The notes under the pieces are model-generated. The model did no database searches. It was given only the letters and a program-made list of their open reading frames with translations, and was not told where the DNA came from. Position numbers and translations under genes: made by a program. This document shows positions 4,060 through 36,000 of a DNA stretch of 64,000 bases, in pieces; position 1 is the stretch's first letter; each line of letters starts with the position of its first letter. This DNA comes from Brachionus manjavacas (lineage: Eukaryota > Rotifera > Eurotatoria > Ploima > Brachionidae). The DNA lies in NCBI GenBank assembly GCA_019054805.1, contig JAHQIY010000012.1, positions 248,001 through 312,000 on the forward strand, given 5' to 3'.

Positions 4060-4071
4060 AAAGCATAATGT

Positions 4072-11072: not shown

Positions 11073-12480
11073 AGTTATTTGAGTTTTTAAATTTTGATAT
11101 TTTTGTTTTCTGTCCCGAGCTAGGGCTCCTTCAGAATAAGTTAAAAAAAAAATCAAATCAAAATAAAAAATTAAATTAAAGTTAAAAAAATTAGATAAAA
11201 AAAGCAAAATAAAGTAAATAAGCTAAAAAAAATGTAAGTTAAGAAGACATAGATTGTTACATGTGCCATATGTTTACATAGTTCTGGTTTCAGGCAAAAA
11301 GGAGGAAGTAGTAAGGTAGCAATTACTCAATCGAGGTGGGTATTCAATTTATTTCGATTCGAAACCTTCTTTATATTTCCCCACCAGTCTTACAACCAAT
11401 GAAATAGAATGACTCAGTCTTGTTCCAACATATCTCTCACTCAACAAAAAAAGCCGATTCGAGACTGTTAGTAATTTAAGTTTATTAAAAGCCTCATGAT
11501 GCACGATGTTGGAGGGAGTATCATATTTTAATTTAAGGATAGATCTAACTGCTGTATTCTGAATTGCTTGTAGTTTTTTGATATTATTTTCTGAAAATGA
11601 ATTCAAGCAAGAAAAAGAAAAGTCTAAAATTGATCCGACTAAAGATTTATTTAAATTTCCTAATTTGTTTAGAGTAAGACCCCATTTTTTGTTTGACAAT
11701 ATCTCAATAATATTTAACAATTTGTCGCAGCGTTCTCTAATTTCGTCTACTAATGTATTACAATTTAATTTAGAATCAAATTTTATACAAAAAAACTTGA
11801 TTTCTCTTTGGCTCATTATTCTGTTTCCATAAATTTTTAAGTTTAGATTATCACTCTCTTTTTTGTACCTAGACAAGACTACTGAACACGACTTTTCAAC
11901 TGATGTCTTGATTTTCCATTTAATAAGCCATTGTTCTAGTTCGTTGGTGTATTTATTAATCTTATTTTCTAGGTTCCCTTTTTTGTTATAAATGAAGAAT
12001 GTAACTAGATCATCTGCGAAAAGCAGAGAGTATTCGTTATTTGTTTTGTTTCTTTTGAGGATGTCTTTAATGTATATACAAAATAAAAAAAACTAAATAC
12101 TATGAAAATACGCAGTTATTTGATATTCGTCGCTCAAGTGGTCATTCACATTAACCTTAAATTTCCTAGAGTCTAAAACAGATCTAGTCCAGTTAGTCAA
12201 GTAATCAGGTGGATTCATTTTAATCAATTTAGAATGTAAACCTTCATGCCAAACCCCTTTTTTCCATTTGATTAAAAAATCTATCTGAGTAAATTGTGTT
12301 CATTAATTCCATGTGATTCGGTTAAAGAATTAGACAAAAGCCGTTTAAATAATGATTTGAAAGATTTGACGTGTCCGTTTGGATTCAAATCCCAAAGATC
12401 TTGAAAAAAATTATTAGAACCAAAACTCAGTTTTGAGACTCGTTTATAACAACTAGAAATGAAAAAACATAGAGAATTTT
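11073..12480 (-). pseudogene. LINE remnant (RT second half, C-terminus and 3' tail)
   Basis: On the minus strand, RT residues LNPNGHVKSFKSL and MNPPDYLTNWTRS (about 12400-12180) are followed by a damaged stretch where the PQGS motif should be. Then come CIYIKDILKRN, the catalytic LFADDLVTFF (about 12025), and the C-terminal region ending VGKYKEGFESK near 11350. The 3' untranslated tail runs to about 11073. The open frame 11349-11876 is only part of this and its apparent start is internal. From 11481 onward this remnant is the beginning of the tandem unit. Confidence 0.82.
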
Positions 12481-14117
12481 GTTTCTTTCACAGAAATTGC
12501 TTTATCCTTTTTTTTAACTTACTAAATCAAATTACCTTTAAAAGTAAATTTATTAAATATAAAATAAAATCTAATCTTTTTGATAAATATCTGTTTTCTA
12601 TGCTACTTTTTCTTTCTAAAAATAATATTTAACTAAACTTGATAACAATTGAACATCAATTCTTAAGAAAAAATATTTTTCAATTGCATTTTTTTCGCTT
12701 TTATTTTTTTTCTTTTCTGATTAAAAAAAAATTAATAGAAAATTAGATAAAATACCAATATTACACGCGAATCTTTATTTTAAATTCATAATAGAACATG
12801 TCTTTGGAGAAAATTTATTTTGCGATTTAAGAAAAGTATTTTAGATCACATGTTGTTCTTTAAAAAAATAAGTCACCCTCCTATTTTTTCATCCGGGCTT
12901 GGGACCGGCATACGGCATAGTTATGACGGCGTCTTCCCCAAGAAGCACGTGGGACGTTCATCATAAACAGCGCCACTCATCCGAGCACTTAAAGGCTGCG
13001 AACTCGACAACTATTTAGACTAGCTTGGAACCACAAACCAAGCGACATTCTCTTTAAGAGAGAATATCTTAACTTTAGCGCTTCCAAAGTTACGGCTATC
13101 CAAAGAGGGTCAGCTGTAGAACAAGTTCTCGCTCTGCTAAGATTCTATACTGGGTGATGGTCGAAGCCAGCGGCACCCTCATACGACAAGACTAGGACAA
13201 AGACCCGTAGATCTATGTACTCGTAATACAGCTCTTCTTCGGACTCGTAGAAGACCACATTGTGTGGCTGCCACCACCCTCCTCTTTTCTCATCCTGGGC
13301 TTGGGACCGGCTTACGGCAGAGTTATGGCGCAGCTAATTTTTAGTTTTATCGATCAAAGTAGATCTTAGTTTTATAGTTTTATACATCAAAGAAAAAATT
13401 TGTGACATTCTAGTTAGAATGAATTGTTATTATAGACCAGAAAATAAATATTTTTATTATTTAAAAAATTTTCATATATTTTAAATAAAATTAAAGTAAA
13501 AATTTAATTGAGAAAAACCAAAATTAAAAAAAAATAAACTGCAAATATTTTCTTATTTTTTCATACACAATTTTTTTAATTCTTTACTATTAAAAAAGTT
13601 ATTCTCCTTTCAAAATCCCCGATGTGAGTATACTGATCAATTAGCCATCCTACTCAAATAAAAAAACATATTTTAATAAAGTAATAATAAAAAAAAATAA
13701 AACCTATCAATTAAAATGGTTTTTTTTTGTCAGTACAAAATTATTAAATAGTTCTCAACATAAATATATATGTCAGTCGTTTAGCTTTTTTGTCAGAATA
13801 GTCAGTTTTTTATAGTCAGCTATAATAGATTAAATTAGTCACCAGTTTTTTGTTATTTTTGTCATCTTAAAAAATTAAATTTGTTACCCCTAAAAATTCA
13901 AGTCATTAAGCCAAGTTAAAGTCCGGAGTTGTAAATTAATTTTTTTTCAAAAGTCCTATTCAAAGACTTTTATTTATTTATTATTTAAATATAAATTATG
14001 TTAATCTTGACGACTCAAAGTTTCGAGATCCCAAAGTCTATTTTTTCTCCAGTTTAACACAGAGTTGTTTAAAAGTCACAAGTCTCAAGTCAAGTCCAAG
14101 TCAAGACTTTGATTTTT
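12130..14117. repeat. Right arm of the ~2 kb inverted repeat
   Basis: This is the reverse complement of 8771-10757, with a spacer of about 1.37 kb between the arms. It lies wholly inside tandem unit A, and the same sequence recurs in direct orientation in units B and C. The GC-core repeat occupies about 12943-14059. Confidence 0.93.
12885..13335. repeat. GC-rich core flanked by ~60-bp direct repeats
   Basis: A ~60-bp block (CACCCTCCT, GGGCTTGGGACCGGC, then ACGGCA, then AGTTATG) occurs near 12873-12930 and again near 13278-13328, at roughly 80% identity by eye. Between them lies ~350 bp of balanced base composition in otherwise very AT-rich DNA. The arrangement recurs in every copy (1-400, 9560-10020 inverted, 20255-20700, 27605-28065). 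I could not identify it. It could be a relic of a two-unit tandem array or a structured non-coding sequence. Confidence 0.7.
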
Positions 14118-14552
14118 TTTTATTATCTTATTTTTATTTTTTTTTCAGCTTAAAAGTCCAAAATTTTGACTGCCAAGCTGAAAGACCGCCTTCCTAAAGG
14201 TTGGCCGGTTTTTTTGCCGCCCGATTAATTCAGACTGTTTATTTTATTGTAAAAAATCTTCCGTGTAATGAACCGGTTCGTTTTGTCCGTATCCAACACT
14301 AGCAAAAATTGGCTTATGAATTGGAACAAAAGTTGGCCTGAAGCAAATCGACCACAAAAATGGTAAAAACATATTGAACCAGTCCAGGTCATAGATTTTG
14401 TCCAGTTAAAGACATAGCAGCACGGTAAAGGCTAAAATGAGCACAAATGCAAAAAAATCTCAAATTCAGTCTTGACGAACCACCAACAAAGAATTTTTAA
14501 TTTTAAAAAAAGTCGGGACTTGGACTTTTTTAAACACTTTTAAACAACTATG
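14060..14552. mobile_element. hAT-type MITE (unit A) with 8-bp TSD
   Basis: The element is bounded by a 17-bp terminal inverted repeat, CAGAGTTGTTTAAAAGT at the left and its complement at the right with one mismatch. It is flanked by identical 8-bp duplications GTTTAACA (14052-14059 and 14553-14560). An 8-bp duplication and CA-starting termini are typical of hAT elements. No transposase is encoded in its ~490 bp. The interior has an irregular CAAGTC array (about 14074-14106) and several AGTCC/GGACT motifs. Confidence 0.88.
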
Positions 14553-14560
14553 GTTTAACA

Positions 14561-15579
14561 TATTAATCAATAAATGTGAAGTTTTTTAACTATTGCAAGA
14601 AAATTCTGAAATATGGAAAATCTATATTCATTAAAAAAACCATTTGTATAAAATTTTATTTAATTTAAACCCTGATCTAACATATTTGAAAAAACAATAT
14701 AAAGTCCGACTTGGACTAAAATATTGCACTTTAAAACAACTCTGATCTTTTATTTTGTTGTTAATGAGTTAGTATAATTAAATTAATAATCTGGTTTTTA
14801 AAAAAATGCTTCATTTTTTTGAAATTTAAAAGCATAAGTGTTCTTATTCATAAGAGTTTTTTTTCCGTCGCTCAAGTGTTCATTCACATTTACCTTAAAT
14901 GTTCTAGAGTCTTAAATGTTCTAGAGTCGTGTTAAAGATCTGTAATCGGTTTTTAATAAACAATGTTTAATATTTTAAAAGCTTTATTTACGATATTGAA
15001 CGTTCTGAAGTTCTAAGAATGGAATTCTTATTTATACCTATATGCTCGTGTAAAGAACACGAGCTTATAATTAAGTCAAGATGCGAGCAATTAACTTTAC
15101 ATTTTAATTTGTTTTAAAATTGAGTTTTAAAAATCATCTTAAAGTCAAAAAAGAATAAGATTTTAAACAATAAAAAAGAAAAAAGGAAAAATTTTACCAA
15201 ATAAGTATTTTTTTAGATGTTTCTAAATCAATTCCTATTAAATTTATTACCTATTTTAAATTCTATTATGTAAAAAAATTCTTTTTTGAAAAATGAAAAT
15301 ATATAAATTTAAATACTCTTTGATTTAGAGAAAAAATGTTCGTTTTAAATTGATAAACAAATTCTTAAAAAAATAGTTTATAAGTTTATTTTCTTTTAAC
15401 TTTTGTTGTACTAAAACAAATAAGTCAAGATGTGAGCTTAATGCTTAATGTATATGTCAATATTTCGAAGCGTCTAACTTTTGAGATGCCTGACAAGTAT
15501 AATTCTTACTTATCTTTGTGCATCAGTTGACAAGCTGATGAATAAGTGATTATTCAGGGTAATAGATCTAACCATTAAA
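14561..15579. other. AT-rich stretch with a 17-bp tandem duplication
   Basis: No gene is visible. About 14870-14940 is a short diverged relic of the LINE RT segment seen near 12130-12170 (GTCGCTCAAGTG, then TCATTCACATT). Inside it CTTAAATGTTCTAGAGT is directly duplicated (14894-14910 and 14911-14927). A small hairpin (GCTCGTGT / ACACGAGC) lies near 15043-15063. The same stretch recurs in units B (about 21925-22940) and C (about 29289-30305). Confidence 0.6.
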
Positions 15580-16440
15580 AAACATTGGGGGCTTCAACTA
15601 ATTGATTTGGCAGTGAGTTCCAAATGTTAGCGGTTCTGTTGAAAAAAGTTATCTCTATTTTGTAGCCTCGAAATTTCTTTGGGAAATTTGAAGCAGTGAC
15701 CTCTTCCTTGGATTTTGGTGACATTATATAATTGCTTTTACAACGAATTCTATTTCATGCATGAACTTGTATAATTGAATTAGATCACCTCTTTTTCTTT
15801 TTTCCAGCAGATTTGGAATGTTCAAAGCCTTTAATCTTCTTTCATACAATTTGTTTCTAATTGAAGAAACAAATTTCGTAGCTCTGCGTTGAATCCTTTC
15901 AACATTCTCACAGTCCGACTTATATAATGATCTTAATAAATTACAATCAAAACGAGCGAATGATTTCCTGATGCGACCCAACATTTGATTTGCTTTGTTT
16001 GTAGCCTCATTCACTTGAATTTTCCATTTAAGAATTGTATTGAATATAACTCGATTTTAGTGTCAGACCATCAAACTCATCCGCTTTCAATTTAGCAATT
16101 AGTCGTATGTGCGGAACAATATCAAATGCTTTCGTAAAATCTAGTAGAATTACATCAACAGGAATACATTTGTCTAGACTCATTGAGATGAAATCTAGAG
16201 TTTCCAGAATATTAGATATCCATGACATTTTCTTAACAAATCCATGCTGTTTTTAGACATAATATTATAGTTCTTTTTATGCTTACCATAATTTTGCAGG
16301 TAAATGAAGTTTAAGACACAAGACGATAATTTCTAGTCGTTAGTTTATCACCTTTTCTAAATAATTGAGATATATTTGCTGATCTGAATTTTATTTGAAG
16401 CTGACTATTAGATAAAGACTTTCTCAAAATTAAAGTTAAA
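15580..16440 (-). pseudogene. Jockey/CR1-like LINE fragment, internally deleted (unit A)
   Basis: Minus-strand frames 16028-16228 and 15724-16014 encode RT residues around DVILLDFTKAFDIVPH, then jump to the C-terminal region (NEATNKANQMLGRIRKSF, VERIQRRATKFVSS, KRKRGDLIQLYKF). Frame remnants of the usual tail (TANIWNSLPNQLVEAPN) follow near 15590-15630. The segment with PQGS and the catalytic FADD is deleted, so the copy is dead. This is a different LINE family from the one at 11-12.5 kb. Confidence 0.85.
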
Positions 16441-16723
16441 GGCTATGGCGAATTCAAGGGGTGGGGAGCTATGGCGGCGCCATACCAATTCAAAGAAAAA
16501 TTTTAATCAAAAAAAAATTTGTTTATTTTCTTGTCAGAGATTTTTTTCTTTGTATGAAAGTCATCATCTTTTTTAGAAAAAAAAATTCTCTTTCATTTGA
16601 TGCGAAAAATTAGTTTAATTCAATTCATGTATAATGATCCAAAAAAACACATGTTTAAATGATCGCTTGCTTTGAATTAATACAAACTCTTTTGAAATCT
16701 TTTAATTTTAATTTTGTGAAAAA

Positions 16724-17738
16724 ATGTTTAAGAATTTTCTTTTAAAAAAACCGACGTCTAATAACCCGCCCAATCATTCAATTAACTCAATTGAAAAGTT
16801 AATTGAACAAAATCAAATTTCAAATGAACAACAAACTACAAAGAAAGGTTTAATCGACTAATCAACCTAATCACCCTTTAATCGACTTTCAAATCGATAA
16901 AGACAACCGCCGATTTTTACCTATAAGCTATAAAAATTTTACATGGCTGGATTATGATGTAACAAAAGACAAGGCTTTTTGTATTTCATGTAGATTATAT
17001 CCTACATCAATGACAAATAAAGCATTTACAGTCGATGGGTTTGCAAAATAGAAAAACTGTGTTTCTTATTTTTTAACTCATCAAAAATCAGCCGAAAACA
17101 TCACTTCTATTGATAGATGGCATAATAAAAAATCGAATAAACAAAAATGCATAGTTTTAGTGAACATACACTTTTCAAAAAATATTCAAGAAAAAAGAGA
17201 AAATTTAAAAAATAATCAAAATCATCAAGTTATTGGCTAAGCAGGGTCTGGCTTTCCGAGCCCATGATGAGTCAGAGGGGTCAAATAACATTGGTAATTT
17301 TAAAGAATTTGTATTCGAGTAAAGACAATTCTTTATTACAGTTCACGTATTACAGAAGTTCGAAACTGTAATGGTACAGTAAACTCGATTTATAATTTAG
17401 TTGAAGGATCTGCAAAACGTCATCATATTTTCAAAGAATTTCAAAATGAAAATGGTAAAAGTAATTTGACAATTAAAAACTATGATACTCGTTGGTCATC
17501 GAGAGACAAAGCATTTAAATCAAAAAGAGATAATTTACCAATTATATTTGAAGCTTTAAAAGTATTTTTTTGTTAAACGTTGAGATTTAAAATTTAAAGT
17601 TCAAAAATTAAGGAGATAGATGAAAATGATCGTAATCAAACCGGTTGTACGGCTAATTCACTTCTAAAATCAATAAGAACATTTGTTTTTGAATGCCCAG
17701 ATACGGTACCCTGTCCAAACATTGGCCAGTTTGTTTAA
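16724..17738 (+). pseudogene. Decayed hAT-family transposase, ZMYM1-like (unit A)
   Basis: The plus strand starts with an in-frame Met leader (MFKNFLLKKPTSNN). After a frameshift it reads a TTF/MYM-type zinc-finger region: NFTWLDYDVTKDKAFCISC, then a premature stop after DGFAK, then CVSYFLTHQKSAENITSIDR. Further frames give LAKQGLAFRAHDESEG and TVNSIYNLVEGSAKRHHIF, then LTIKNYDTRWSSRDKAFKS. This series is typical of the hAT-like transposases related to animal zinc finger MYM-type protein 1. At least four frameshifts or stops make it inactive. A GC-rich palindromic stretch at about 16455-16490 may be the element's 5' terminus; I found no matching 3' terminus. Confidence 0.8.
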
Positions 17739-18360
17739 AGCAAAAAATTTTCAATTTACTCAGGTTCTTTATAAAATTAAAATAAACTATAAAAAATTTA
17801 AAAAATCACTTTTGTTTATTCAGAGATTTTTGAGCAATTTTTAACCCTTTGTTCTGTAGGTAAGCTGTCAAAAATTTTCATCTTCGAACGATTTAATATG
17901 TAATATTTCAAAAATTTTAAAATAAATTTTTAAAAAATCAAGTTTAATTAAAATTTGAATTATAAATAGTTGCTTGAACAATATCTCAAGTAAAGTACAA
18001 TTGATATTAAATAAAAAATTAAATGACATTTAAATTTTAAAATCTTAAAAAAATTATATGCTTAGGTATATCAACAAATTTTTTATTTACAATCTGATTT
18101 AAAGTTTAACATGAAAATATCAGATTTAGTTAATTTCTCTTAGGTTGAAAGTAATTTATCTAGAATCAAAATTAATCTAAAAAAATATGCAAAAAGTTTA
18201 TTTGAAGTTTTAATAAATAGGATTAACTTTTTTATGAATTGAATACTAGTTCATTCTAAAATTAAAATTTGTGTTTTTTTTGTAATATTAAATTTTTTAA
18301 ATGTTTTATAATTGGCTTTTTTTATAAATAGAAGTTAATTTTTTTATTTAAACAAAAATG

Positions 18361-18850
18361 AATTCACGACAGCAATTAGATCAGCCAGAGGTCAGAATAA
18401 AAAGACCTGTCTACAATTATGCCAAGTTTAAAGAAAGATATCAAACAAATTCATTCATAGGATTCAGGATTTTACTCACAATCCGTGATTTGTTTGTCAA
18501 AAAGTTGTTCACCTGGAAAAGATTGTTTGATTCATAATATTCTCAATCGATTTCCTTTTCTAGTCTGGCTAAGAGAATACAACTTAAAGGAAACATTTTT
18601 AGCCGATCTTTTTCGCAGGTTTAACTGTTGGAATCATGCAAATACCCCAGGGTATGGGCTACGCCTTTCTTGCCACTCTTCCTCCCATCTACGGTTTATA
18701 CACTTCATTCTTTCCAGCTCTAATATACTTTTTTCTCGGCACTTCAAAGCAAATATCTATAGGTACTTTTGCTATTCCTTCACTGATGACCGGCTCTATG
18801 ATCATCAGGCTCGAAGATAAATTTGCTCCACCGGAAGGATTTAATAAATC
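18361..18850 (+). pseudogene. Truncated SLC26 exon 1 with two frameshifts (unit A)
   Basis: This matches the first 490 bp of the intact SLC26 coding exon at 33088. It has one extra A in the run at 18499-18503 and one extra T in the run at 18609-18613 compared with units B and C. Each shifts the frame, so the Met frame fails shortly after codon 46. At 18851 it is fused to antisense LINE sequence and the rest of the gene is missing. Because both differences are single bases in homopolymers, they may be read errors, not mutations. Confidence 0.9.
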
Positions 18851-19800
18851 TTTATTAAAAGCTTCATGATGCACGATGTTGGAGGGAGTATCATATTTTA
18901 ATTTAAGGATAGATCTAACTGCTGTATTCTGAATTGCTTGTAGTTTTTTGATATTATTTTCTGAAAATGAATTCAAGCAAGAAAAAGAAAAGTCTAAAAT
19001 TGATCCGACTAAAGATTTATATAGATTTCCTAGTGTGTTCTGATTAAGACCCCATTTTTTGTTTGACAATATCTCAATAATATTTAACAATTTGTCGCAG
19101 CGTTCTTTAATTTCGTCTACTAATGTATTACAATTTAATTTAGAATCAAATTTTATACAAAAAACTTGATTTCTCTTTGGCTCATTATTCTGTTTCCATA
19201 AATTTTTAAGTTTAGATTATCACTCTCTTTTTTGTACCTAGACAAGACTACTGAATACGACTTTTCAACTGAAGTCTTGATTTTCCATTTAATAAGCCAT
19301 TGTTCTAGTTCGTTGGTGTATTTATTAATCTTATTTTCTAGGTTCCCTTTTTTGTTATAAATGAAGAATGTAACTAGATCATCTGCGAAAAGCAGAGAGT
19401 ATTCGTTATTTGTTTTGTTTCTTTTGAGGATGTCTTTAATGTATATACAAAATAAAAAAAAACTAAATACTATGAAAATACGCAGTTATTTGATATTCGT
19501 CGCTCAAGTGGTCATTCACATTAACCTTAAATTTCCTAGAGTCTAAAACAGATCTAGTCCAGTTAGTCAAGTAATCAGGTGGATTCATTTTAATCAATTT
19601 AGAATGTAAACCTTCATGCCAAACCCCTTTTTTTCCATTTGATTAAAAAATCTATCTGAGTAAATTGTGTTCATTAATTCCATGTGATTCGGTTAAAGAA
19701 TTAGACAAAAGCCGTTTAAATAATGATTTGAAAGATTTGACGTGTTCGTTTGGATTCAAATCCCAAAGATCTTGAAAAAAATTATTAGAACCAAAACTCA
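18851..19800 (-). pseudogene. LINE RT second half (unit B start)
   Basis: Same LINE segment as 11481-12430, without the 3' tail, which is lost at the duplication junction. The minus frame 18689-19090 continues artefactually into antisense SLC26 sequence. Its LINE part has QNTLGNLYKSLVGS where unit A has LNKLGNLNKSLVGS. Confidence 0.82.
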
Positions 19801-21428
19801 GTTTTGAGACTCGTTTATAACAACTAGAAATGAAAAAACATAGAGAATTTTGTTTCTTTCACAGAAATTGCTTTATCCTTTTTTTTAACTTACTAAATCA
19901 AATTACCTTTAAAAGTAAATTTATTAAATATAAAATAAAATCTAATCTTTTTGATAAATATCTGTTTTCTATGCTACTTTTTCTTTCTAAAAATAATATT
20001 TAACTAAACTTGATAACAATTGAACATCAATTCTTAAGAAAAAATATTTTTCAATTGCATTTTTTTCGCTTTTATTTTTTTTCTTTTCTGATTAAAAAAA
20101 TTAATAGAAAATTAGATAAAATACCAATATTACACGCGAATCTTTATTTTAAATTCATAATAGAACATGTCTTTGGAGAAAATTTATTTTGCGATTTAAG
20201 AAAAGTATTTTAGATCACATGTTGTTCTTTAAAAAAATAAGTCACCCTCCTATTTTTTCATCCGGGCTTGGGACCGGCATACGGCATAGTTATGACGGCG
20301 TCTTCCCCTAAGAAGCACGTGGGACGTTCATCATAAACAGCGCCACTCATCCGAGCACTTAAAGGCTGCGAACTCGACAACTATTTAGACTAGCTTGGAA
20401 CCACAAACCAAGCGACATTCTCTTTAAGAGAGAATATCTTAACTTTAGCGCTTCCAAAGTTACGGCTATCCAAAGAGGGTCAGCTGTAGAACAAGTTCTC
20501 GCTCTGCTAAGATTCTATACTGGGTGATGGTCGAAGCCAGCGGCACCCTCATACGACAAGACTAGGACAAAGACCCGTAGATCTATGTACTCGTAATACA
20601 GCTCTTCTTCGGACTCGTAGAAGACCACATTGTGTGGCTGCCACCACCCTCCTCTTTTCTCATCCTGGGCTTGGGACCGGCTTACGGCAGAGTTATGGCG
20701 CAGCTAATTCTTAGTTTTATCGATCAAAGTAGATCTTAGTTTTATAGTTTTATACATCAAAGAAAAAATTTGTGACATTCTAGTTAGAATGAATTGTTAT
20801 TATAGACCAGAAAATAAATATTTTTATTATTTAAAAAATTTTCATATATTTTAAATAAAATTAAAGTAAAAATTTAATTGAGAAAAACCAAAATTAAAAA
20901 AATAAACTGCAAATATTTTCTTATTTTTTCATACACAATTTTTTTAATTCTTTACTATTAAAAAAGTTATTCTCCTTTCAAAATCCCCGATGTGAGTATA
21001 CTGATCAATTAGCCATCCTACTCAAATAAAAAAACATATTTTAATAAAGTAATAATAAAAAAAAATAAAACCTATCAATTAAAATGGTTTTTTTTGTCAG
21101 TACAAAATTATTAAATAGTTCTCAACATAAATATATATGTCAGTCGTTTAGCTTTTTTGTCAGAATAGTCAGTTTTTTATAGTCAGCTATAATAGATTAA
21201 ATTAGTCACCAGTTTTTTGTTATTTTTGTCATCTTAAAAAAATTAAATTTGTTACCCCCTAAAAATTCAAGTCATTAAGCCAAGTTAAAGTCCGGAGTTG
21301 TAAATTAATTTTTTTTCAAAAGTCCTATTCAAAGACTTTTATTTATTTATTATTTAAATATAAATTATGTTAATCTTGACGACTCAAAGTTTCGAGATCC
21401 CAAAGTCTATTTTTTCTCCAGTTTAACA

Positions 21429-21916
21429 CAGAGTTGTTTAAAAGTCACAAGTCTCAAGTCAAGTCCAAGTCAAGACTTTGATTTTTTTATTATCTTATTT
21501 TTTTTTCAGCTTAAAAGTCCAAAATTTTGACTGCCAAGCTGAAAGACCGCCTTCCTAAAGGTTGGCCGGTTTTTTTGCCGCCCGATTAATTCAGACTGTT
21601 TATTTTATTGTAAAAAATCTTCCGTGTAATGAACCGGTTTGTTTTGTCCGTATCCAACACTAGCAAAAATTGGCTTATGAATTGGAACAAAAGTTGGCCT
21701 GAAGCAAATCGACCACAAAAATGGTAAAAACATATTGAACCAGTCCAGGTCATAGATTTTGTCCAGTTAAAGACATAGCAGCACGGTAAAGGCTAAAATG
21801 AGCACAAATGCAAAAAAATCTCAAATTCAGTCTTGACGAACCACCAACAAAGAATTTTTAATTTTAAAAAAAAAGTCGGGACTTGGACTTTTTTTAAACA
21901 CTTTTAAACAACTATG
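21429..21916. mobile_element. hAT-type MITE (unit B)
   Basis: This is a copy of the unit A element with the same terminal repeats and the same GTTTAACA duplication at both sides (21421-21428 and 21917-21924). It was duplicated with the unit, not inserted independently. Confidence 0.88.
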
Positions 21917-22941
21917 GTTTAACATATTAATCAATAAATGTGAAGTTTTTTAACTATTGCAAGAAAATTCTGAAATATGGAAAATCTATATTCATTAAAA
22001 AAACCATTTGTATAAAATTTTATTTAATTTAAACCCTGATCTAACATATTTGAAAAAACAATATAAAGTCCGACTTGGACTAAAATATTGCACTTTAAAA
22101 CAACTCTGATCTTTTATTTTGTTGTTAATGAGTTAGTATAATTAAATTAATAATCTGGTTTTTAAAAAAATGCTTCATTTTTTGAAATTTAAAAGCATAA
22201 GTGTTCTTATTCATAAGAGTTTTTTTCCGTCGCTCAAGTGTTCATTCACATTTACCTTAAATGTTCTAGAGTCTTAAATGTTCTAGAGTCGTGTTAAAGA
22301 TCTGTAATCGGTTTTTAATAAACAATGTTTAATATTTTAAAAGCTTTATTTACGATATTGAACGTTCTGAAGTTCTAAGAATGGAATTCTTATTTATACC
22401 TATATGCTCGTGTAAAGAACACGAGCTTATAATTAAGTCAAGATGCGAGCAATTAACTTTACATTTTAATTTGTTTTAAAATTGAGTTTTAAAAATCATC
22501 TTAAAGTCAAAAAAGAATAAGATTTTAAACAATAAAAAAGAAAAAAGGAAAAATTTTACCAAATAAGTATTTTTTTAGATGTTTCTAAATCAATTCCTAT
22601 TAAATTTATTACCTATTTTAAATTCTATTATGTAAAAAAATTCTTTTTTGAAAAATGAAAATATATAAATTTAAATACTCTTTGATTTAGAGAAAAAATG
22701 TTCGTTTTAAATTGATAAACAAATTCTTAAAAAAATAGTTTATAAGTTTATTTTCTTTTAACTTTTGTTGTACTAAAACAAATAAGTCAAGATGTGAGCT
22801 TAATGCTTAATGTATATGTCAATATTTCGAAGCGTCTAACTTTTGAGATGCCTGACAAGTATAATTCTTACTTATCTTTGTGCATCAGTTGACAAGCTGA
22901 TGAATAAGTGATTATTCAGGGTAATAGATCTAACCATTAAA

Positions 22942-25096: not shown

Positions 25097-25717
25097 AAGC
25101 AAAAATTTTCAATTTACTCAGGTTCTTTATAAAATTAAAATAAACTATAAAAAATTTAAAAAATCACTTTTGTTTATTCAGAGATTTTTGAGCAATTTTT
25201 AACCCTTTGTTCTGTAGGTAAGCTGTCAAAAATTTTCATCTTCGAACGATTTAATATGTAATATTTCAAAAATTTTAAAATAAATTTTTAAAAAATCAAG
25301 TTTAATTAAAATTTGAATTATAAATAGTTGCTTGAACAATATCTCAAGTAAAGTACAATTGATATTAAATAAAAAATTAAATGACATTTAAATTTTAAAA
25401 TCTTAAAAAAATTATATGCTTAGGTATATCAACAAATTTTTTATTTACAATCTGATTTAAAGTTTAACATGAAAATATCAGATTTAGTTAATTTCTCTTA
25501 GGTTGAAAGTAATTTATCTAGAATCAAAATTAATCTAAAAAAATATGCAAAAAGTTTATTTGAAGTTTTAATAAATAGGATTAACTTTTTTATGAATTGA
25601 ATACTAGTTCATTCTAAAATTAAAATTTGTGTTTTTTTTGTAATATTAAATTTTTTAAATGTTTTATAATTGGCTTTTTTTTTATAAATAGAAGTTAATT
25701 TTTTTATTTAAACAAAA

Positions 25718-26227
25718 ATGAATTCACGACAGCAATTAGATCAGCCAGAGGTCAGAATAAAAAGACCTGTCTACAATTATGCCAAGTTTAAAGAAAGATA
25801 TCAAACAAATTCATTCATAGGATTCAGGATTTTACTCACAATCCGTGATTTGTTTGTCAAAAGTTGTTCACCTGGAAAAGATTGTTTGATTCATAATATT
25901 CTCAATCGATTTCCTTTTCTAGTCTGGCTAAGAGAATACAACTTAAAGGAAACATTTTTAGCCGATCTTTTCGCAGGTTTAACTGTTGGAATCATGCAAA
26001 TACCCCAGGGTATGGGCTACGCCTTTCTTGCCACTCTTCCTCCCATCTACGGTTTATACACTTCATTCTTTCCAGCTCTAATATACTTTTTTCTCGGCAC
26101 TTCAAAGCAAATATCTATAGGTACTTTTGCTATTCCTTCACTGATGACCGGCTCTATGATCATCAGGCTCGAAGATAAATTTGCTCCACCGGAAGGATTT
26201 AATAAATCTTTATTAAAAGCTTCATGA
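25718..26227 (+). pseudogene. Truncated SLC26 exon 1, open frame (unit B)
   Basis: The 169-codon frame has the same first 163 residues as the intact transporter (MNSRQQLDQPEV through GFNKS). It then has LLKAS and a stop, encoded by LINE sequence across the junction at 26208/26209. It retains the SLC26 start, upstream sequence and the sulphate-transporter signature (about residues 109-131), but lacks the rest of the membrane domain and STAS. If expressed it would give a short fragment with only the first membrane helices, so function as a transporter is not expected. Confidence 0.9.
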
Positions 26228-27160
26228 TGCACGATGTTGGAGGGAGTATCATATTTTAATTTAAGGATAGATCTAACTGCTGTATTCTGAATTGCTTGTA
26301 GTTTTTTGATATTATTTTCTGAAAATGAATTCAAGCAAGAAAAAGAAAAGTCTAAAATTGATCCGACTAAAGATTTATATAGATTTCCTAGTGTGTTCTG
26401 ATTAAGACCCCATTTTTTGTTTGACAATATCTCAATAATATTTAACAATTTGTCGCAGCGTTCTTTAATTTCGTCTACTAATGTATTACAATTTAATTTA
26501 GAATCAAATTTTATACAAAAAACTTGATTTCTCTTTGGCTCATTATTCTGTTTCCATAAATTTTTAAGTTTAGATTATCACTCTCTTTTTTGTACCTAGA
26601 CAAGACTACTGAATACGACTTTTCAACTGATGTCTTGATTTTCCATTTAATAAGCCATTGTTCTAGTTCGTTGGTGTATTTATTAATCTTATTTTCTAGG
26701 TTCCCTTTTTTGTTATAAATGAAGAATGTAACTAGATCATCTGCGAAAAGCAGAGAGTATTCGTTATTTGTTTTGTTTCTTTTGAGGATGTCTTTAATGT
26801 ATATACAAAATAAAAAAAAACTAAATACTATGAAAATACGCAGTTATTTGATATTCGTCGCTCAAGTGGTCATTCACATTAACCTTAAATTTCCTAGAGT
26901 CTAAAACAGATCTAGTCCAGTTAGTCAAGTAATCAGGTGGATTCATTTTAATCAATTTAGAATGTAAACCTTCATGCCAAACCCCTTTTTTTCCATTTGA
27001 TTAAAAAATCTATCTGAGTAAATTGTGTTCATTAATTCCATGTGATTCGGTTAAAGAATTAGACAAAAGCCGTTTAAATAATGATTTGAAAGATTTGACG
27101 TGTTCGTTTGGATTCAAATCCCAAAGATCTTGAAAAAAATTATTAGAACCAAAACTCAGT
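26209..27160 (-). pseudogene. LINE RT second half (unit C start)
   Basis: Third copy of the same segment; protein reading identical to that of unit B, including the QNTLGNLYKSLVGS variant. The tail is again cut at the junction with SLC26. Confidence 0.82.
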
Positions 27161-28786
27161 TTTGAGACTCGTTTATAACAACTAGAAATGAAAAAACATA
27201 GAGAATTTTGTTTCTTTCACAGAAATTGCTTTATCCTTTTTTTAACTTACTAAATCAAATTACCTTTAAAAGTAAATTTATTAAATATAAAATAAAATCT
27301 AATCTTTTTGATAAATATCTGTTTTCTATGCTACTTTTTCTTTCTAAAAATAATATTTAACTAAACTTGATAACAATTGAACATCAATTCTTAAGAAAAA
27401 ATATTTTTCAATTGCATTTTTTTCGCTTTTATTTTTTTTCTTTTCTGATTAAAAAAAAATTAATAGAAAATTAGATAAAATACCAATATTACACGCGAAT
27501 CTTTATTTTAAATTCATAATAGAACATGTCTTTGGAGAAAATTTATTTTGCGATTTAAGAAAAGTATTTTAGATCACATGTTGTTCTTTAAAAAATAAGT
27601 CACCCTCCTATTTTTTCATCCGGGCTTGGGACCGGCTTACGGCAGAGTTATGACGGCGTCTTCCCTAAGAAGCACGTGGGACGTTCATCATAAACAGCGC
27701 CACTCATCCGAGCACTTAAAGGCTGCGAACTCGACAACTATTTAGACTAGCTTGGAACCAAAAACCAAGCGACATTCTCTTTAAGAGAGAATATCTTAAC
27801 TTTAGCGCTTCCAAAGTTACGGCTATCCAAAGAGGGTCAGCTGTAGAACAAGTTCTCGCTCTGCTAAGATTCTATACTGGGTGATGGTCGAAGCCAGCGG
27901 CACCCTCATACGACAAGACTAGGACAAAGACCCGTAGATCTATGTACTCGTAATACAGCTCTTCTTCGGACTCGTAGAAGACCACATTGTGTGGCTGCCA
28001 CCACCCTCCTCTTTTCTCATCCTGGGCTTGGGACCGGCTTACGGCAGAGTTATGGCGCAGCTAATTCTTAGTTTTATCGATCAAAGTAGATCTTAGTTTT
28101 ATAGTTTTATACATCAAAGAAAAAATTTGTGACATTCTAGTTAGAATGAATTGTTATTATAGACCAGAAAATAAATATTTTTATTATTTAAAAAATTTTC
28201 ATATATTTTAAATAAAATTAAAGTAAAAATTTAATTGAGAAAAACCAAAATTAAAAAAAAATAAACTGCAAATATTTTCTTATTTTTTCATACACAATTT
28301 TTTAATTCTTTACTATTAAAAAAGTTATTCTCCTTTCAAAATCCCCGATGTGAGTATACTGATCAATTAGCCATCCTACTCAAATAAAAAAACATATTTT
28401 AATAAAGTAATAATAAAAAAATAAAACCTATCAATTAAAATGGTTTTTTTTTTGTCAGTACAAAATTATTAAATAGTTCTCAACATAAATATATATGTCA
28501 GTCGTTTAGCTTTTTTGTCAGAATAGTCAGTTTTTTATAGTCAGCTATAATAGATTAAATTAGTCACCAGTTTTTTGTTATTTTTGTCATCTTAAAAAAA
28601 TTAAATTTGTTACCCCCTAAAAATTCAAGTCATTAAGCCAAGTTAAAGTCCGGAGTTGTAAATTAATTTTTTTTCAAAAGTCCTATTCAAAGACTTTTAT
28701 TTATTTATTATTTAAATATAAATTATGTTAATCTTGACGACTCAAAGTTTCGAGATCCCAAAGTCTATTTTTTCTCCAGTTTAACA

Positions 28787-29280
28787 CAGAGTTGTTTAAA
28801 AGTCACAAGTCTCAAGTCAAGTCCAAGTCAAGACTTTGATTTTTTTTTATTATCTTACTTTTATTTTTTTTTCAGCTTAAAAGTCCAAAATTTTGACTGC
28901 CAAGCTGAAAGACCGCCTTCCTAAAGGTTGGCCGGTTTTTTTGCCGCCAGATTAATTCAGACTGTTTATTTTATTGTAAAAAATCTTCCGTGTAATGAAC
29001 CGGTTTGTTTTGTCCGTATCCAACACTAGCAAAAATTGGCTTATGAATTGGAACAAAAGTTGGCCTGAAGCAAATCGACCACAAAAATGGTAAAAACATA
29101 TTGAACCAGTCCAGGTCATAGATTTTGTCCAGTTAAAGACATAGCAGCACGGTAAAGGCTAAAATGAGCACAAATGCAAAAAAATCTCAAATTCAGTCTT
29201 GACGAACCACCAACAAAGAATTTTTAATTTTAAAAAAAAGTCGGGACTTGGACTTTTTTAAACACTTTTAAACAACTATG
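28787..29280. mobile_element. hAT-type MITE (unit C)
   Basis: Third copy, with GTTTAACA at 28779-28786 and 29281-29288. Same interior as the other two apart from homopolymer lengths. Confidence 0.88.
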
Positions 29281-30307
29281 GTTTAACATATTAATCAATA
29301 AATGTGAAGTTTTTTAACTATTGCAAGAAAATTCTGAAATATGGAAAATCTATATTCATTAAAAAAACCATTTGTATAAAATTTTATTTAATTTAAACCC
29401 TGATCTAACATATTTGAAAAAACAATATAAAGTCCGACTTGGACTAAAATATTGCACTTTAAAACAACTCTGATCTTTTATTTTGTTGTTAATGAGTTAG
29501 TATAATTAAATTAATAATCTGGTTTTTAAAAAAATGCTTCATTTTTTTGAAATTTAAAAGCATAAGTGTTCTTATTCATAAGAGTTTTTTTTTTCCGTCG
29601 CTCAAGTGTTCATTCACATTTACCTTAAATGTTCTAGAGTCTTAAATGTTCTAGAGTCGTGTTAAAGATCTGTAATCGGTTTTTAATAAACAATGTTTAA
29701 TATTTTAAAAGCTTTATTTACGATATTGAACGTTCTGAAGTTCTAAGAATGGAATTCTTATTTATACCTATATGCTCGTGTAAAGAACACGAGCTTATAA
29801 TTAAGTCAAGATGCGAGCAATTAACTTACATTTTAATTTGTTTTAAAATTGAGTTTTAAAAATCATCTTAAAGTCAAAAAAGAATAAGATTTTAAACAAT
29901 AAAAAAGAAAAAGGAAAAATTTTACCAAATAAGTATTTTTTTAGATGTTTCTAAATCAATTCCTATTAAATTTATTACCTATTTTAAATTCTATTATGTA
30001 AAAAAAATTCTTTTTTGAAAAATGAAAATATATAAATTTAAATACTCTTTGATTTAGAGAAAAAATGTTCGTTTTAAATTGATAAACAAATTCTTAAAAA
30101 AATAGTTTATAAGTTTATTTTCTTTTAACTTTTGTTGTACTAAAACAAATAAGTCAAGATGTGAGCTTAATGCTTAATGTATATGTCAATATTTCGAAGC
30201 GTCTAACTTTTGAGATGCCTGACAAGTATAATTCTTACTTATCTTTGTGCATCAGTTGACAAGCTGATGAATAAGTGATTATTCAGGGTAATAGATCTAA
30301 CCATTAA

Positions 30308-31170
30308 AAAACATTGGGGGCTTCAACTAATTGATTTGGCAGTGAGTTCCAAATGTTAGCGGTTCTGTTGAAAAAAGTTATCTCTATTTTGTAGCCTCGA
30401 AATTTCTTTGGGAAATTTGAAGCAGTGACCTCTTCCTTGGATTTTGGTGACATTATATAATTGCTTTTACAACGAATTCTATTTCATGCATGAACTTGTA
30501 TAATTGAATTAGATCACCTCTTTTTCTTTTTTCCAGCAGATTTGGAATGTTCAAAGCCTTTAATCTTCTTTCATACAATTTGTTTCTAATTGAAGAAACA
30601 AATTTCGTAGCTCTGCGTTGAATCCTTTCAACATTCTCACAGTCCGACTTATATAATGATCTTAATAAATTACAATCAAAACGAGCGAATGATTTCCTGA
30701 TGCGACCCAACATTTGATTTGCTTTGTTTGTAGCCTCATTCACTTGAATTTTCCATTTAAGAATTGTATTGAATATAACTCGATTTTAGTGTCAGACCAT
30801 CAAACTCATCCGCTTTCAATTTAGCAATTAGTCGTATGTGCGGAACAATATCAAATGCTTTCGTAAAATCTAGTAGAATTACATCAACAGGAATACATTT
30901 GTCTAGACTCATTGAGATGAAATCTAGAGTTTCCAGAATATTAGATATCCATGACATTTTCTTAACAAATCCATGCTGTTTTTAGACATAATATTATAGT
31001 TCTTTTTATGCTTACCATAATTTTGCAGGTAAATGAAGTTTAAGACACAAGACGATAATTTCTAGTCGTTAGTTTATCACCTTTTCTAAATAATTGAGAT
31101 ATATTTGCTGATCTGAATTTTATTTGAAGCTGACTATTAGATAAAGACTTTCTCAAAATTAAAGTTAAAG
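30308..31170 (-). pseudogene. LINE fragment, internally deleted (unit C)
   Basis: Third copy, with frames 30453-30743 and 30757-30957 identical in protein sequence to those of units A and B. Confidence 0.85.
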
Positions 31171-31449
31171 GCTATGGCGAATTCAAGGGGTGGGGAGCTA
31201 TGGCGGCGCCATACCAATTCAAAGAAAAATTTTAATCAAAAAAATTTGTTTATTTTCTTGTCAGAGATTTTTTCTTTGTATGAAAGTCATCATCTTTTTT
31301 AGAAAAAAAAATTCTCTTTCATTTGATGCGAAAAATTAGTTTAATTCAATTCATGTATAATGATCCAAAAAAACACATGTTTAAATGATCGCTTGCTTTG
31401 AATTAATACAAACTCTTTTGAAATCTTTTAATTTTAATTTTGTGAAAAA

Positions 31450-32467
31450 ATGTTTAAGAATTTTCTTTTAAAAAAACCGACGTCTAATAACCCGCCCAAT
31501 CATTCAATTAACTCAATTGAAAAGTTAATTGAACAAAATCAAATTTCAAATGAACAACAAACTACAAAGAAAGGTTTAATCGACTAATCAACCTAATCAC
31601 CCTTTAATCGACTTTCAAATCGATAAAGACAACCGCCGATTTTTACCTATAAGCTATAAAAATTTTACATGGCTGGATTATGATGTAACAAAAGACAAGG
31701 CTTTTTGTATTTCATGTAGATTATATCCTACATCAATGACAAATAAAGCATTTACAGTCGATGGGTTTGCAAAATAGAAAAACTGTGTTTCTTATTTTTT
31801 AACTCATCAAAAATCAGCCGAAAACATCACTTCTATTGATAGATGGCATAATAAAAAATCGAATAAACAAAAATGCATAGTTTTAGTGAACATACACTTT
31901 TCAAAAAATATTCAAGAAAAAAGAGAAAATTTAAAAAAAATAATCAAAATCATCAAGTTATTGGCTAAGCAGGGTCTGGCTTTCCGAGCCCATGATGAGT
32001 CAGAGGGGTCAAATAACATTGGTAATTTTAAAGAATTTGTATTCGAGTAAAGACAATTCTTTATTACAGTTCACGTATTACAGAAGTTCGAAACTGTAAT
32101 GGTACAGTAAACTCGATTTATAATTTAGTTGAAGGATCTGCAAAACGTCATCATATTTTCAAAGAATTTCAAAATGAAAATGGTAAAAGTAATTTGACAA
32201 TTAAAAAACTATGATACTCGTTGGTCATCGAGAGACAAAGCATTTAAATCAAAAAGAGATAATTTACCAATTATATTTGAAGCTTTAAAAGTATTTTTTT
32301 GTTAAACGTTGAGATTTAAAATTTAAAGTTCAAAAATTAAGGAGATAGATGAAAATGATCGTAATCAAACCGGTTGTACGGCTAATTCACTTCTAAAATC
32401 AATAAGAACATTTGTTTTTGAATGCCCAGATACGGTACCCTGTCCAAACATTGGCCAGTTTGTTTAA
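31450..32467 (+). pseudogene. Decayed hAT-family transposase (unit C)
   Basis: Third copy, equally broken. Its position directly upstream of the intact SLC26 gene (about 620 bp before the start codon) shows that the insertion predates the triplication. Confidence 0.8.
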
Positions 32468-32989
32468 AGCAAAAAATTTTCAATTTACTCAGGTTCTTTA
32501 TAAAATTAAAATAAACTATAAAAAATTTAAAAAATCACTTTTGTTTATTCAGAGATTTTTGAGCAATTTTTAACCCTTTGTTCTGTAGGTAAGCTGTCAA
32601 AAATTTTCATCTTCGAACGATTTAATATGTAATATTTCAAAAATTTTAAAATAAATTTTTAAAAAATCAAGTTTAATTAAAATTTGAATTATAAATAGTT
32701 GCTTGAACAATATCTCAAGTAAAGTACAATTGATATTAAATAAAAAATTAAATGACATTTAAATTTTAAAATCTTAAAAAAATTATATGCTTAGGTATAT
32801 CAACAAATTTTTTATTTACAATCTGATTTAAAGTTTAACATGAAAATATCAGATTTAGTTAATTTCTCTTAGGTTGAAAGTAATTTATCTAGAATCAAAA
32901 TTAATCTAAAAAAATATGCAAAAAGTTTATTTGAAGTTTTAATAAATAGGATTAACTTTTTTATGAATTGAATACTAGTTCATTCTAAA

Positions 32990-33087
32990 ATTAAAATTTG
33001 TGTTTTTTTGTAATATTAAATTTTTTAAATGTTTTATAATTGGCTTTTTTTTTATAAATAGAAGTTAATTTTTTTATTTAAACAAAA
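32990..33087 (+). promoter_or_regulatory. Probable SLC26 core upstream region
   Basis: A TATAAATA-like element at about 33053-33060 lies 28 bp before the start codon, with a poly-T run before it. It is retained at the same place in the truncated copies (before 18361 and 25718). The assignment as a promoter is inference; the whole region is AT-rich, so the match is weak evidence. Confidence 0.3.
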
Positions 33088-36000
33088 ATGAATTCACGAC
33101 AGCAATTAGATCAGCCAGAGGTCAGAATAAAAAGACCTGTCTACAATTATGCCAAGTTTAAAGAAAGATATCAAACAAATTCATTCATAGGATTCAGGAT
33201 TTTACTCACAATCCGTGATTTGTTTGTCAAAAGTTGTTCACCTGGAAAAGATTGTTTGATTCATAATATTCTCAATCGATTTCCTTTTCTAGTCTGGCTA
33301 AGAGAATACAACTTAAAGGAAACATTTTTAGCCGATCTTTTCGCAGGTTTAACTGTTGGAATCATGCAAATACCCCAGGGTATGGGCTACGCCTTTCTTG
33401 CCACTCTTCCTCCCATCTACGGTTTATACACTTCATTCTTTCCAGCTCTAATATACTTTTTTCTCGGCACTTCAAAGCAAATATCTATAGGTACTTTTGC
33501 TATTCCTTCACTGATGACCGGCTCTATGATCATCAGGCTCGAAGATAAATTTGCTCCACCGGAAGGATTTAATAAATCATTAGAGAATTTAACTCATGGA
33601 ATGGACACTTCAAATTTTCTGAGTGAAGATAGAGAAGAGGCTAGGGCGCTTATTGCAATATCGTCAGCGTTTTGGATCGGGATTATTCATTTGGTCATGT
33701 TTTGCTTCAATTTGGGTTTCATAACATCGTTTCTAAGCGAGCCGATGATAAATGGATTTCTAACAGGCAATTTAAATAGAAAAAAAAAAGAGACAGATTT
33801 TAGTTTAATTTTTATTTAAAGGAAGTGCAATTCATGTGTTAACTTCACAAGTAAAATCAGTGTTGGGAATTTCGTTGAAAAAGTATTCAGGAGCATTTCA
33901 AATTCCACTTGTAAATTTTCTTTGATTCTTTAAAATATTTAAATTTTTGTCTTAAAATAGATTTGGTATGAGACCATAATGAAAATTCCGCAAGCAAACA
34001 TTGCTACGATAGTTACTTCTGTAATTTGTATTGCTATTATGTTAGTGGTGAAAATGTATATCAATGAAAAATTTGCCAAAAAATTCAAAGGTAAAATAAA
34101 AAAAAGGTGTTAATGAAATTTTTTGTTTTTGTTTTTTTTTTAATTTAAATAATCACGAAATTTTTATGGGCTTGGTCAATTTTGTTACCAATTAATCCTA
34201 ATTTTGTGATTATTTACCCTAATCAAATTTTTAGTTGTTAATTATTTAAACATACAAAAAATTCCTAGCTAAAAAATATTTTTTGCTCAGTAAAATTATA
34301 ATGTAGAAATCAATAGAAATAATGTAGAAATTTTACCAAGAAATTTTCAATTCTGAAATATTTGAATAAATTTTTTAATAAAAGAGATAATTTAGTTCTT
34401 CAAAATACTTAGTGTTAACAGATGTCAGCAAAAACTCTGCATGTTAGTTGCAGAGTTAATTAGAATACTTTTTAATAGGGTGCTAAGTGCAGAGATTGTT
34501 GCAGACTTATTTTATTGCATTTAACTAATTTATCTCTTTAAATAAAAAAGTTATTCAATTTTTTATGAATTCAAACAAATGTCATTGAATAAAAACAAAC
34601 TTAACAACTCCACTTAAGTTGTTTAATTATAAATTTTTTTAAGTTTTAAGACAAATATTTAGTTTTTATTAGTAAGGCTTTTTTTCATTTTTTGTTTATT
34701 GTGTAGATTTTCTTGTCATTTGACTTCGAAATATTAAGTTCATATTCTACATGGGAAAATGCCTGTTTTCGGAATTTTTGATTAAGACACAAAATTTATT
34801 ATTTTTAAAGTTATCTATTAAATTATATCAAATTAGACAAAATTTTAAGAAAAGAAAAAGTTTGAACAAAACTTTTTAAGTTCATTCTCTGTATCTGATT
34901 ACTCTAACTTTAAAAATTTATAATCATTTTATACACATTATTAGACACAGGTTTCGCCTAATTTTTCTTAGGAAAGCGTATTAAGAGTTATTTTATTTTA
35001 TTTCAAAAATTACAAATATTTTTTTTTTAAAAAAAATATAAAAAAATAAAAAAAAATTCACAATTAATAATGAAAATGATTTTGTGAAGTTCGGTGCAAA
35101 ACAACAATAAAAGTACAAAAAAATTAAATATCGGAACAATGAACTACGCTCGATTATATTGAAATTTAATTTCTGCTAAACTCTGCAAATTTAGCAGACC
35201 TTAATATTTGATGCAGCTTTGAAAGTTGCGCTGTGTTGCATTTACAGAACTAAGTTTAAACCTTTAGAAAATTAGTTATTCAATTTTTTTACATTTTTTT
35301 CTGTTCGTTTTTTCATTTTGTGCTGAATTTCACAAAACCTCAAAAACCCAGTTTAAAGGTTAATCAACAGGATAGTGAACCTATCTTAAAGGCTGATTTA
35401 AACTTCATTTATTTAAATTTTATTTAAAATTTTTCATTTAAAGTTGAGCAATTCAAAAAAATCAAATTAATGTTTTGAAAATTATCAGCTTAAATGCTGA
35501 AAGCCTCAACATTGATTTTTTAATGATTTTTTAATCACAAAGCAGTGTAATGTTTTTTTACCATTTTTCGGTTTTGCAATCGGTTCATTTAAATTATTGC
35601 TTTTCATTATCAGTTTTTCTTTTAAATTTAAAGCTGAAATATTATAAAATAAACATTTAAAAGTTAACTAAACTAAATAAAATATTTCCTAAATTAGTAG
35701 TTCCAAATCGATGCGTAAATTGGGACACACAATAATTTCAATAAATAAAAGATTGGAGAAAGGGTGAGATTCTACATTTTAAAAAAGTAAAATAGTATTT
35801 TTAGTCTCTAGCTTGTTTTACAATTACTCGAAATAAACAAAATATCATTCTAAATTAAAAGAGTAATAAACTTTTATTTTTTATTAAATTAAAAAAAATT
35901 GACTTAATTTTTATTTTGTATAAAATAAAAATAATTAAATATTTTTTTAGTTCCAATTCCCATTGAACTTCTGATAGTAAAATTGAATCTTAGAAAAAAA

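Follow-up and report, generated by a model that had tools for sequence, protein, structure and literature searches.

In the rotifer Brachionus manjavacas, a stretch of 64,000 nucleotides on contig C12 (C12:248001-312000, below called the window, its first letter being position 1) contains three head-to-tail units of about 7.4 kb, each of which ends inside the first exon of an SLC26 transporter gene and carries one copy of the RNA family RAGATH-11 (RF03148) between two motifs resembling type-P1 twister ribozymes (RF03160), named T1 and T2 here. We consider it fairly probable that this triplication is a recent local tandem duplication, with a copy number known from the assembly alone, in which a founding join was followed by homologous copying, and that the element inside it is a twister counterpart of retrozymes. 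The triplication as such is of an ordinary kind, which is less true of what it contains.

Junctions and history of the tandem array

The three units (Table 1) showed 99.28-99.38% pairwise identity over 7.36-7.37 kb by blastn. They are head-to-tail copies of more than 1 kb with more than 90% identity, as in segmental duplications, and 7.4 kb at >99% identity excludes a chance likeness. Both internal junctions join SLC26 exon sequence (GGATTTAATAAATC) to a sequence resembling a long interspersed nuclear element (LINE; TTTATTAAAAGC). With up to two mismatches allowed, the junction 26-mer was present at two places, both of them internal joins, in the 114,169,980-bp assembly of 61 contigs that was used for all genome searches. 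The right break follows base 2 of codon 164 in the SLC26 open reading frame (ORF) that starts at 33088, and the left break cuts a LINE-like fragment. The native flanks read ...TTTAAG/TTTATTAAAAGC on the left and ...AATAAATC/ATTAGAG on the right. Comparison of these flanks revealed no clear microhomology at the join, as would be the case in an event of the end-joining or template-switching type. No Pfam match was found for the ORF that holds the left breakpoint, and the LINE label comes from its repeat family and the reading of this ORF. Among the matches listed, the sequence to the right of the left break occurs at no fewer than 40 places on 15 contigs, including five in the C12 cluster described below.

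Most of what the sequence-only reading had said about the layout was borne out. Its unit boundaries are correct to the base (7370, 7358 and 7370 bp), a single LINE-to-SLC26 interval was indeed multiplied head to tail with identical junctions, only the last unit leads into the remaining exons of the gene, and the very recent origin, which it gave as one of two possibilities, agrees with the presence of one substitution column in the right-hand 4.55 kb of the units. The breakpoint it put at about codon 163 does lie within exon 1, at codon 164. The word "exact" has to be given up, as 24 substitution columns and 33 indel events were observed between the units.

These substitutions are unevenly distributed. 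Unit 1 is singled out by 14 columns, unit 2 by five and unit 3 by four, and all units differ in the last one; four of the columns (14128-14133) represent one ambiguous short deletion in unit 2. All except one lie left of 14300, in the part composed of multicopy repeats (23/24, binomial P 4e-9). Seven differences of unit 1 fall inside 24 bp (11651-11674). The 37-mer that units 2 and 3 have here equals common LINE-family sequence, with 84 exact places in the genome (both units included) and 379 at three or fewer mismatches. The unit 1 form (11646-11682) has, counting its own position, three exact occurrences, none of them outside C12, and four more with three mismatches. Two further C12 copies agree with unit 1 at all 10 sites (11493-11887) that distinguish it from units 2 and 3. 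A diverged LINE copy matches unit 2 at four of the seven sites within the patch and is unlike both units 1 and 2 at the sites flanking it on either side, so the patch is short. Whether it arose by conversion or by polishing error, a patch common to units 2 and 3 fits copying between them after the first join. Since unit 1 lacks it, the history in best agreement with the data is a single founding join and subsequent homologous copying.

The following order of events may be proposed. In a first event, such as end joining or template switching, SLC26 exon 1 would have been linked at codon 164 to the LINE-like fragment located 7.37 kb upstream of it. The outcome would have been two units, of which unit 2 continued into the intact gene. 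Common LINE-family sequence would have replaced a short tract near the junction, before or during amplification. Homologous unequal exchange or copying would then have turned two units into three, and such copying would explain why units 2 and 3 have both the junction and the patch in common.

Several features of the assembly speak against this history. The indels (31 of the 33 events in homopolymers of at least four bases) look like those expected of an uncorrected long-read consensus, and the changes specific to unit 3 at 12910 and 12918 make T2 resemble T1, an effect that wrongly mapped reads would also have. Given the hundreds of LINE copies that are nearly identical, polishing could have created the 24-bp patch artificially, and the copy count might be inflated by a graph loop or joined haplotypes. 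In the latter case one or two units would be real and the rest would come from a repeat loop or haplotype stitching, an explanation that we regard as unlikely but by no means negligible. The poorly corrected consensus, the packing of the region with 98-99% repeats and the single substitution column in the right-hand 4.55 kb all favour it. On the other hand, a false extra unit needs no novel SLC26-LINE junction, whereas the junction is sharp and was seen twice; the substitutions are non-random, with the patch in units 2 and 3 and not in unit 1; and an array with the same anatomy is present on contig C9, although the same type of error is conceivable there. Judged from its sequence, the C12 tandem duplication is probably real in the animal.

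The anatomy of the C9 array is the same as that of the C12 array. Its RAGATH-11 copies at 1792216, 1797888 and 1803561 are spaced by 5672 and 5673 bp, and comparison of the sequences that end at these copies gave 99.65-99.72% identity, over 2.86 kb between the first and the others and 3.12 kb between the second and the third. A left boundary sequence is common to the second and third units and the first unit has a different left flank; one junction was seen twice. This head-to-tail array (L179-L181) spans 1789481 to at least 1803680 and comprises at least three units of ~5.67 kb.

A 9-bp inverted repeat with a 2-bp spacer (TTTATTAAA ... TTTAATAAA) spans the C12 join, and when window sequence was joined at random, 33 of 20,000 trials equalled or beat it (P 0.00165). 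Such a repeat could be expected if the 7.36-kb unit were a mobile element or a re-inserted excised circle. However, the unit ends inside a coding exon and a LINE-like repeat, both of which natively continue past these ends, and among the matches listed, those spanning the full length of its right-hand part were confined to the C12 array, the others being ~540 bp or less. Besides, the inverted repeat at the C9 junction is of 4 bp only. We therefore regard a mobile unit as highly improbable, and the palindrome was dropped as a general junction feature on account of the same C9 junction.

RAGATH-11 between twister motifs

All five Rfam matches to RAGATH-11 in the window scored above the cut-off of 79.4 bits (107.2-109.4 bits), and the best one covers the full length (1-116) of the family model. 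The twisters of unit 1 were detected by Rfam at permissive settings, and those of units 2 and 3 and of an inverted copy left of the array were placed by a pattern scan; one P2 pair of the unit 3 T2 (27599-27654) is non-standard. With 47 of 5232 candidates scored, the genome holds at least 47 RAGATH-11 copies on six contigs. Neither RAGATH-11 nor twister-P1 had any match in 14 control genomes. Two exact twister cores, 384-403 bp apart, surround RAGATH-11 on its own strand at 27 of the 30 loci examined, the exceptions being L026 with one exact core and L041 and L051 with none on the RAGATH-11 strand. At loci outside C12, similarity mostly starts about 40-180 bp ahead of T1 and mostly stops just past T2 (about 1681-1745 of the locus, with some pairs extending longer), and the C12 copies are similar to other loci only from about T1 onward.

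Among 18 distinct twisters, whose core was fixed by the search pattern, 127 of 144 P1/P2 pair cells were standard, with changes on both sides of some pairs (e.g. CG to AT), and P2 pairs 1-3 were standard in 53 of 54 cells (the 18 sequences belonging to few groups). One RAGATH-11 pair varies as UG, UA and CG in 15 sequences. The GC content of the C12 monomer (0.49) may be compared with 0.285 for the window. If the element is transcribed and cleaved at both twisters, a 402-nt RNA would be released.

A second element family was observed on C24, C18 and C44, in the order T1, ~140 nt without similarity to the C12 type, RAGATH-11 and T2. Predicted cleavage sites are 309-314 nt apart where RAGATH-11 is present, with one 640-nt interval on C24, and the monomers are separated by linkers, AT-rich and 243 nt long on C18 and 327-328 nt long on C24. 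The GC content is 0.46-0.47 for the C18 monomers and 0.30 for the C18 linker. When the 402-nt C12 monomer was compared with this family by blastn, T1 aligned over 49 nt (86%) and RAGATH-11 was kept over 95 nt at 98.9% (C18) and 96 nt at 97.9% (C24), with all other matches at 10 nt or less; T2 lies outside the stretch compared and was identified in the second family by Rfam and pattern. Both families form arrays. A candidate twister satellite, a type-P1 twister array with a period of ~556 bp, occupies C18:2977-41119 near the contig start, and L055 (C18:19801-21600) contains three RAGATH-11 matches within the 1.8 kb read. Permissive Rfam searches (E up to 0.01) of a 10-kb tandem array at C24:268001-278000 (L054) gave 14 RAGATH-11 and 31 twister matches.

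Direct or inverted arrays or clusters with RAGATH-11 were found on C12, C9, C11, C24 and C18. Local periods of these arrays are ~556 bp on C18, 641 bp on C24 and ~775 bp on C11, where tandem monomers of a few hundred bp are involved, and ~5.67 kb on C9 and ~7.36 kb on C12; five C11 loci have 2.2 to 2.8 kb in common at >99%. Another RAGATH-11 lies within 20 kb of 40 of the 47 best-scored copies (33/40 without C12), compared with 10 of the 40 best-scored copies for a LINE-tail control (5/34 without C12), a contrast that favours our reading but is only rough, as both counts are lower bounds from score-ranked lists.

Several points against our reading concern the element itself. The twister scores (31.2-51.4 bits) are all below the Rfam type-P1 cut-off of 67.2, which none of the 62 scored genome matches among those listed exceeded, and in a fixed register one or more P1/P2 pairs are non-standard in 11 of the 18 distinct twisters. 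None of 29 RAGATH-11 pairs showed a two-sided change relative to the commonest pair in 15 sequences. An unusually stable circular fold was not supported: with 60 mononucleotide shuffles each, no gain in stability was observed for the C12 402-nt (-123.0 vs -117.5 +/- 5.9), C18 314-nt (-89.6 vs -85.3 +/- 4.6) or C24 313-nt monomer (-83.8 vs -86.9 +/- 5.5). The element is also known from genomic DNA alone.

Whether the element has any part in the duplications is a separate question. We give roughly even chances to the view that it is an old repeat that was simply carried along in a duplication-prone genome. In agreement with this view, the element contains neither of the C12 breakpoints, which are in the LINE-like fragment and the exon. 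It accounts less well for the arrays and clusters on five contigs, for the stronger clustering of RAGATH-11 than of the LINE control among best-scored matches, and for the 40 kb right of the C12 array, a small control in which the longest repeat pair is 306 bp. At the other extreme, there might be a mobile RNA element bounded by twisters in which RAGATH-11 is the functional core. Its 402-nt or ~313-nt RNAs, freed by cleavage at both twisters, would be circularised and copied back, and its loci would seed the tandem amplification of nearby segments of 0.6-7 kb, which here would have included the start of a transporter gene. This proposal is speculative, and we think it unlikely to hold in full. 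As the two families keep only the twisters and RAGATH-11, the latter would then be needed for replication or return to DNA.

Other ideas about RAGATH-11 were examined as well. A role as an internal promoter of RNA polymerase III was dropped: TTTT, which should stop this polymerase, occurs in all three C18 monomers read (the C12 monomer is without it). A RAGATH-11 core pattern gave no matches in IMG/VR and a slightly looser one none in prokaryote genomes, both being exact patterns that miss diverged copies, and the at least 120 IMG/VR stretches obtained with a much looser pattern were treated as chance. Single twister-P1 matches were noticed at C20:632454-632530 (L056, 47.5 bits) and C1:1293958-1294012 (L057, 44.4 bits), and no RAGATH-11 was present beside them in the 1 kb read at each. 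LINE-tail matches lie near both, ~1.9 kb off on C20 (629958-630580) and ~400 bp off on C1 (1292899-1293555).

Table 1. Positions of the array units, junctions, RNA motifs, gene parts and repeats, in window coordinates
Feature	Position	Strand	Remarks
Unit 1 of tandem array	11481..18850	+	7370 bp
Unit 2 of tandem array	18851..26208	+	7358 bp
Unit 3 of tandem array	26209..33578	+	7370 bp; runs on into the remainder of the SLC26 gene
Internal junction 1	18837..18862	+	GGATTTAATAAATC/TTTATTAAAAGC; SLC26 exon to LINE-like sequence
Internal junction 2	26195..26220	+	identical to junction 1
LINE-like fragment ORF	11349..11876	-	holds the left breakpoint; from repeat family and reading of the ORF
37-mer of the patch, unit 2	19016..19052	+	equals common LINE-family sequence; unit 3 copy 26374-26410
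Twister motif T2, unit 1	12872..12927	-	type-P1, 51.4 bits, E 1.8e-10
RAGATH-11, unit 1	12944..13063	-	109.4 bits
Twister motif T1, unit 1	13273..13329	-	43.8 bits, E 3e-8
Element, unit 2	20241..20699	-	T2 20241-20296, RAGATH-11 20314-20433, T1 20643-20699
Element, unit 3	27599..28056	-	T2 27599-27654, RAGATH-11 27671-27790, T1 28000-28056
Inverted copy of the element, left of array	9562..10018	+	T1 9562-9618, RAGATH-11 9827-9946, T2 9963-10018
SLC26 first-exon ORF	33088..33819	+	Pfam Sulfate_transp; final bases read as intron
Truncated SLC26 exon copy, unit 2	25718..26227	+	169-residue ORF: 164 SLC26 residues and 5 from the LINE-like side
Truncated SLC26 exon copy, unit 1	18358..18850	+	frameshifted after 48 codons; 59-residue ORF
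~2-kb repeat, unit 1	12130..14118	+	copies in unit 2 (19500-21487) and unit 3 (26858-28845)
Further copies of ~2-kb repeat	8771-10757; 1-1134		inverted; partial

The SLC26 gene and the surroundings of the array

The first exon of the SLC26 gene matches PF00916 at 4e-40, and the structural relatives of its product are prestin, pendrin and other SLC26 structures. The 666-residue product, obtained by joining exons by eye, has its closest relative in an SLC26A6-like protein of B. plicatilis (92% identical), in which a STAS domain (PF01740) is present, and is 52% identical to a protein from B. calyciflorus, which places the host within Brachionus, near B. plicatilis. The first intron (33767-33821), also read by eye, appears to be ~55 bp long with a GC-AG boundary. 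Another SLC26 gene is located ~80 kb upstream (C12:200704) and further ones occur on C12, C4 and C7. Exon matches with 60-62% identity to the exon-1 query cluster at C7:879-902 kb and C7:1043 kb, which suggests an expanded SLC26 family.

It had been proposed from the sequence that the triplication, if real, multiplies the promoter and the first coding part of the transporter. A promoter may have been copied; as to the coding part, the two copies differ in value, since unit 2 retains an open frame of 169 residues and unit 1 is frameshifted. The unit 1 copy has one-base homopolymer insertions at 18499 and 18609 that are absent from units 2 and 3, and its frameshift possibly results from consensus errors in these two homopolymers. 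As assembled, neither the unit 1 nor the unit 2 copy could encode a complete transporter. The copies might still be functional, either as extra promoters feeding SLC26 or through a regulatory truncated product of 169 residues, and the open SLC26 start of 164 residues in unit 2 would agree with this. Nevertheless, we find it very unlikely, considering that the unit 2 frame stops five codons into the LINE-like side, that the Sulfate_transp domain is only partial and that the unit 1 copy is frameshifted in the assembly, be it possibly by consensus error. A tandem duplication that cuts a coding exon and keeps the intact gene downstream is a common outcome.

To its left, the array adjoins further direct and inverted copies, forming with them a larger cluster that starts ~8 kb left of the window and has the array as its right edge. 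Many such copies with 98-99% identity lie between about -8.3 kb and 11.4 kb in window coordinates; one of them, at -7351..-2481, corresponds to 8771..13637 in reverse complement. Two copies of the ~2-kb repeat (8771-10757 and 12130-14118) form an inverted pair around an axis at 11444.5, and the left breakpoint falls in their 1.4-kb spacer, 36 bp away from this axis. Right of the array (34-74 kb), repeats reach at most 306 bp for an inverted pair and 229 bp for a direct one. Other mobile-element remains were noted in the window, including a 1025-residue LINE ORF with endonuclease and reverse transcriptase domains (43445-46522, plus strand), a Gypsy-like pol in pieces with reverse transcriptase, RNase H and integrase domains (1380-5118, minus strand) and a DDE transposase remnant (55556-56421, minus strand).

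Relation to known elements and implications

The C12 array resembles recent segmental tandem duplications in its head-to-tail multi-kb copies, its identity above 99% and its single founding junction, and differs from them in no essential way. Among open-access titles on Brachionus genomes or duplication, none dealt with this locus. On its own, the triplication offers little more than an example of a young duplication that can be checked and whose sequence of events can be traced.

For the element, the closest comparison is with the retrozymes without long terminal repeats (non-LTR retrozymes) of metazoans, which have type I hammerhead ribozymes, monomers of 150-450 bp, dimeric to tandem arrays and a GC content below 50% (PMC7229834). 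The monomers of the C12 type (402 nt) and of the second family (mostly 309-314 nt) are similar in size, form tandem arrays and have less than 50% GC where this was measured. They differ from those retrozymes in having twisters instead of hammerheads, in being bounded by two twisters of different sequence, and in containing a conserved RAGATH-11 and an AT-rich linker between monomers (243 nt on C18). No hammerhead was detected by Rfam in the window at the gathering score, or in 801 bp of the window and five loci at permissive settings. Because a twister stands in place of the hammerhead, we do not file the element as a retrozyme member; its anatomy suggests that it may be a twister counterpart of the animal non-LTR retrozymes.

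The twisters resemble type-P1 twisters in the core TAA...CCGGTCCCAAGYCC...GAGGG and in mostly standard P1/P2 pairs, and depart from the Rfam family in scoring below its cut-off, in a very short P3 and, in the C12-type T1, in an extra base after the P4 strand. An RNA of similar size with twister P1 appears in PMC12542633; that RNA was found in transcriptomes and has twisters on opposite strands, whereas the genomic DNA examined here has both on one strand. PMC7761336 mentions, as work in preparation, RTE retrotransposons with truncated twister ribozymes at their 5' ends, and twisters in retroelements are therefore not new as such. Some open-access papers on RAGATH ribozymes deal with RAGATH-18 or take RAGATH as a test set. 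We found no paper naming RAGATH-11, and none combining Brachionus with ribozymes, in the open-access literature, which omits most subscription journals.

What the present locus adds concerns RAGATH-11, which is here, in an animal, the most conserved part of twister-bounded repeats. This RNA family, for which we found no described function, gains a consistent setting just 5' of a twister and inside a twister-bounded monomer, and it is nearly unchanged across two element families, with intervening sequences that cannot be aligned. Should the twisters cleave, a twister-based counterpart of the hammerhead retrozymes would exist in animals, and the role of RAGATH-11 would become directly askable in vitro.

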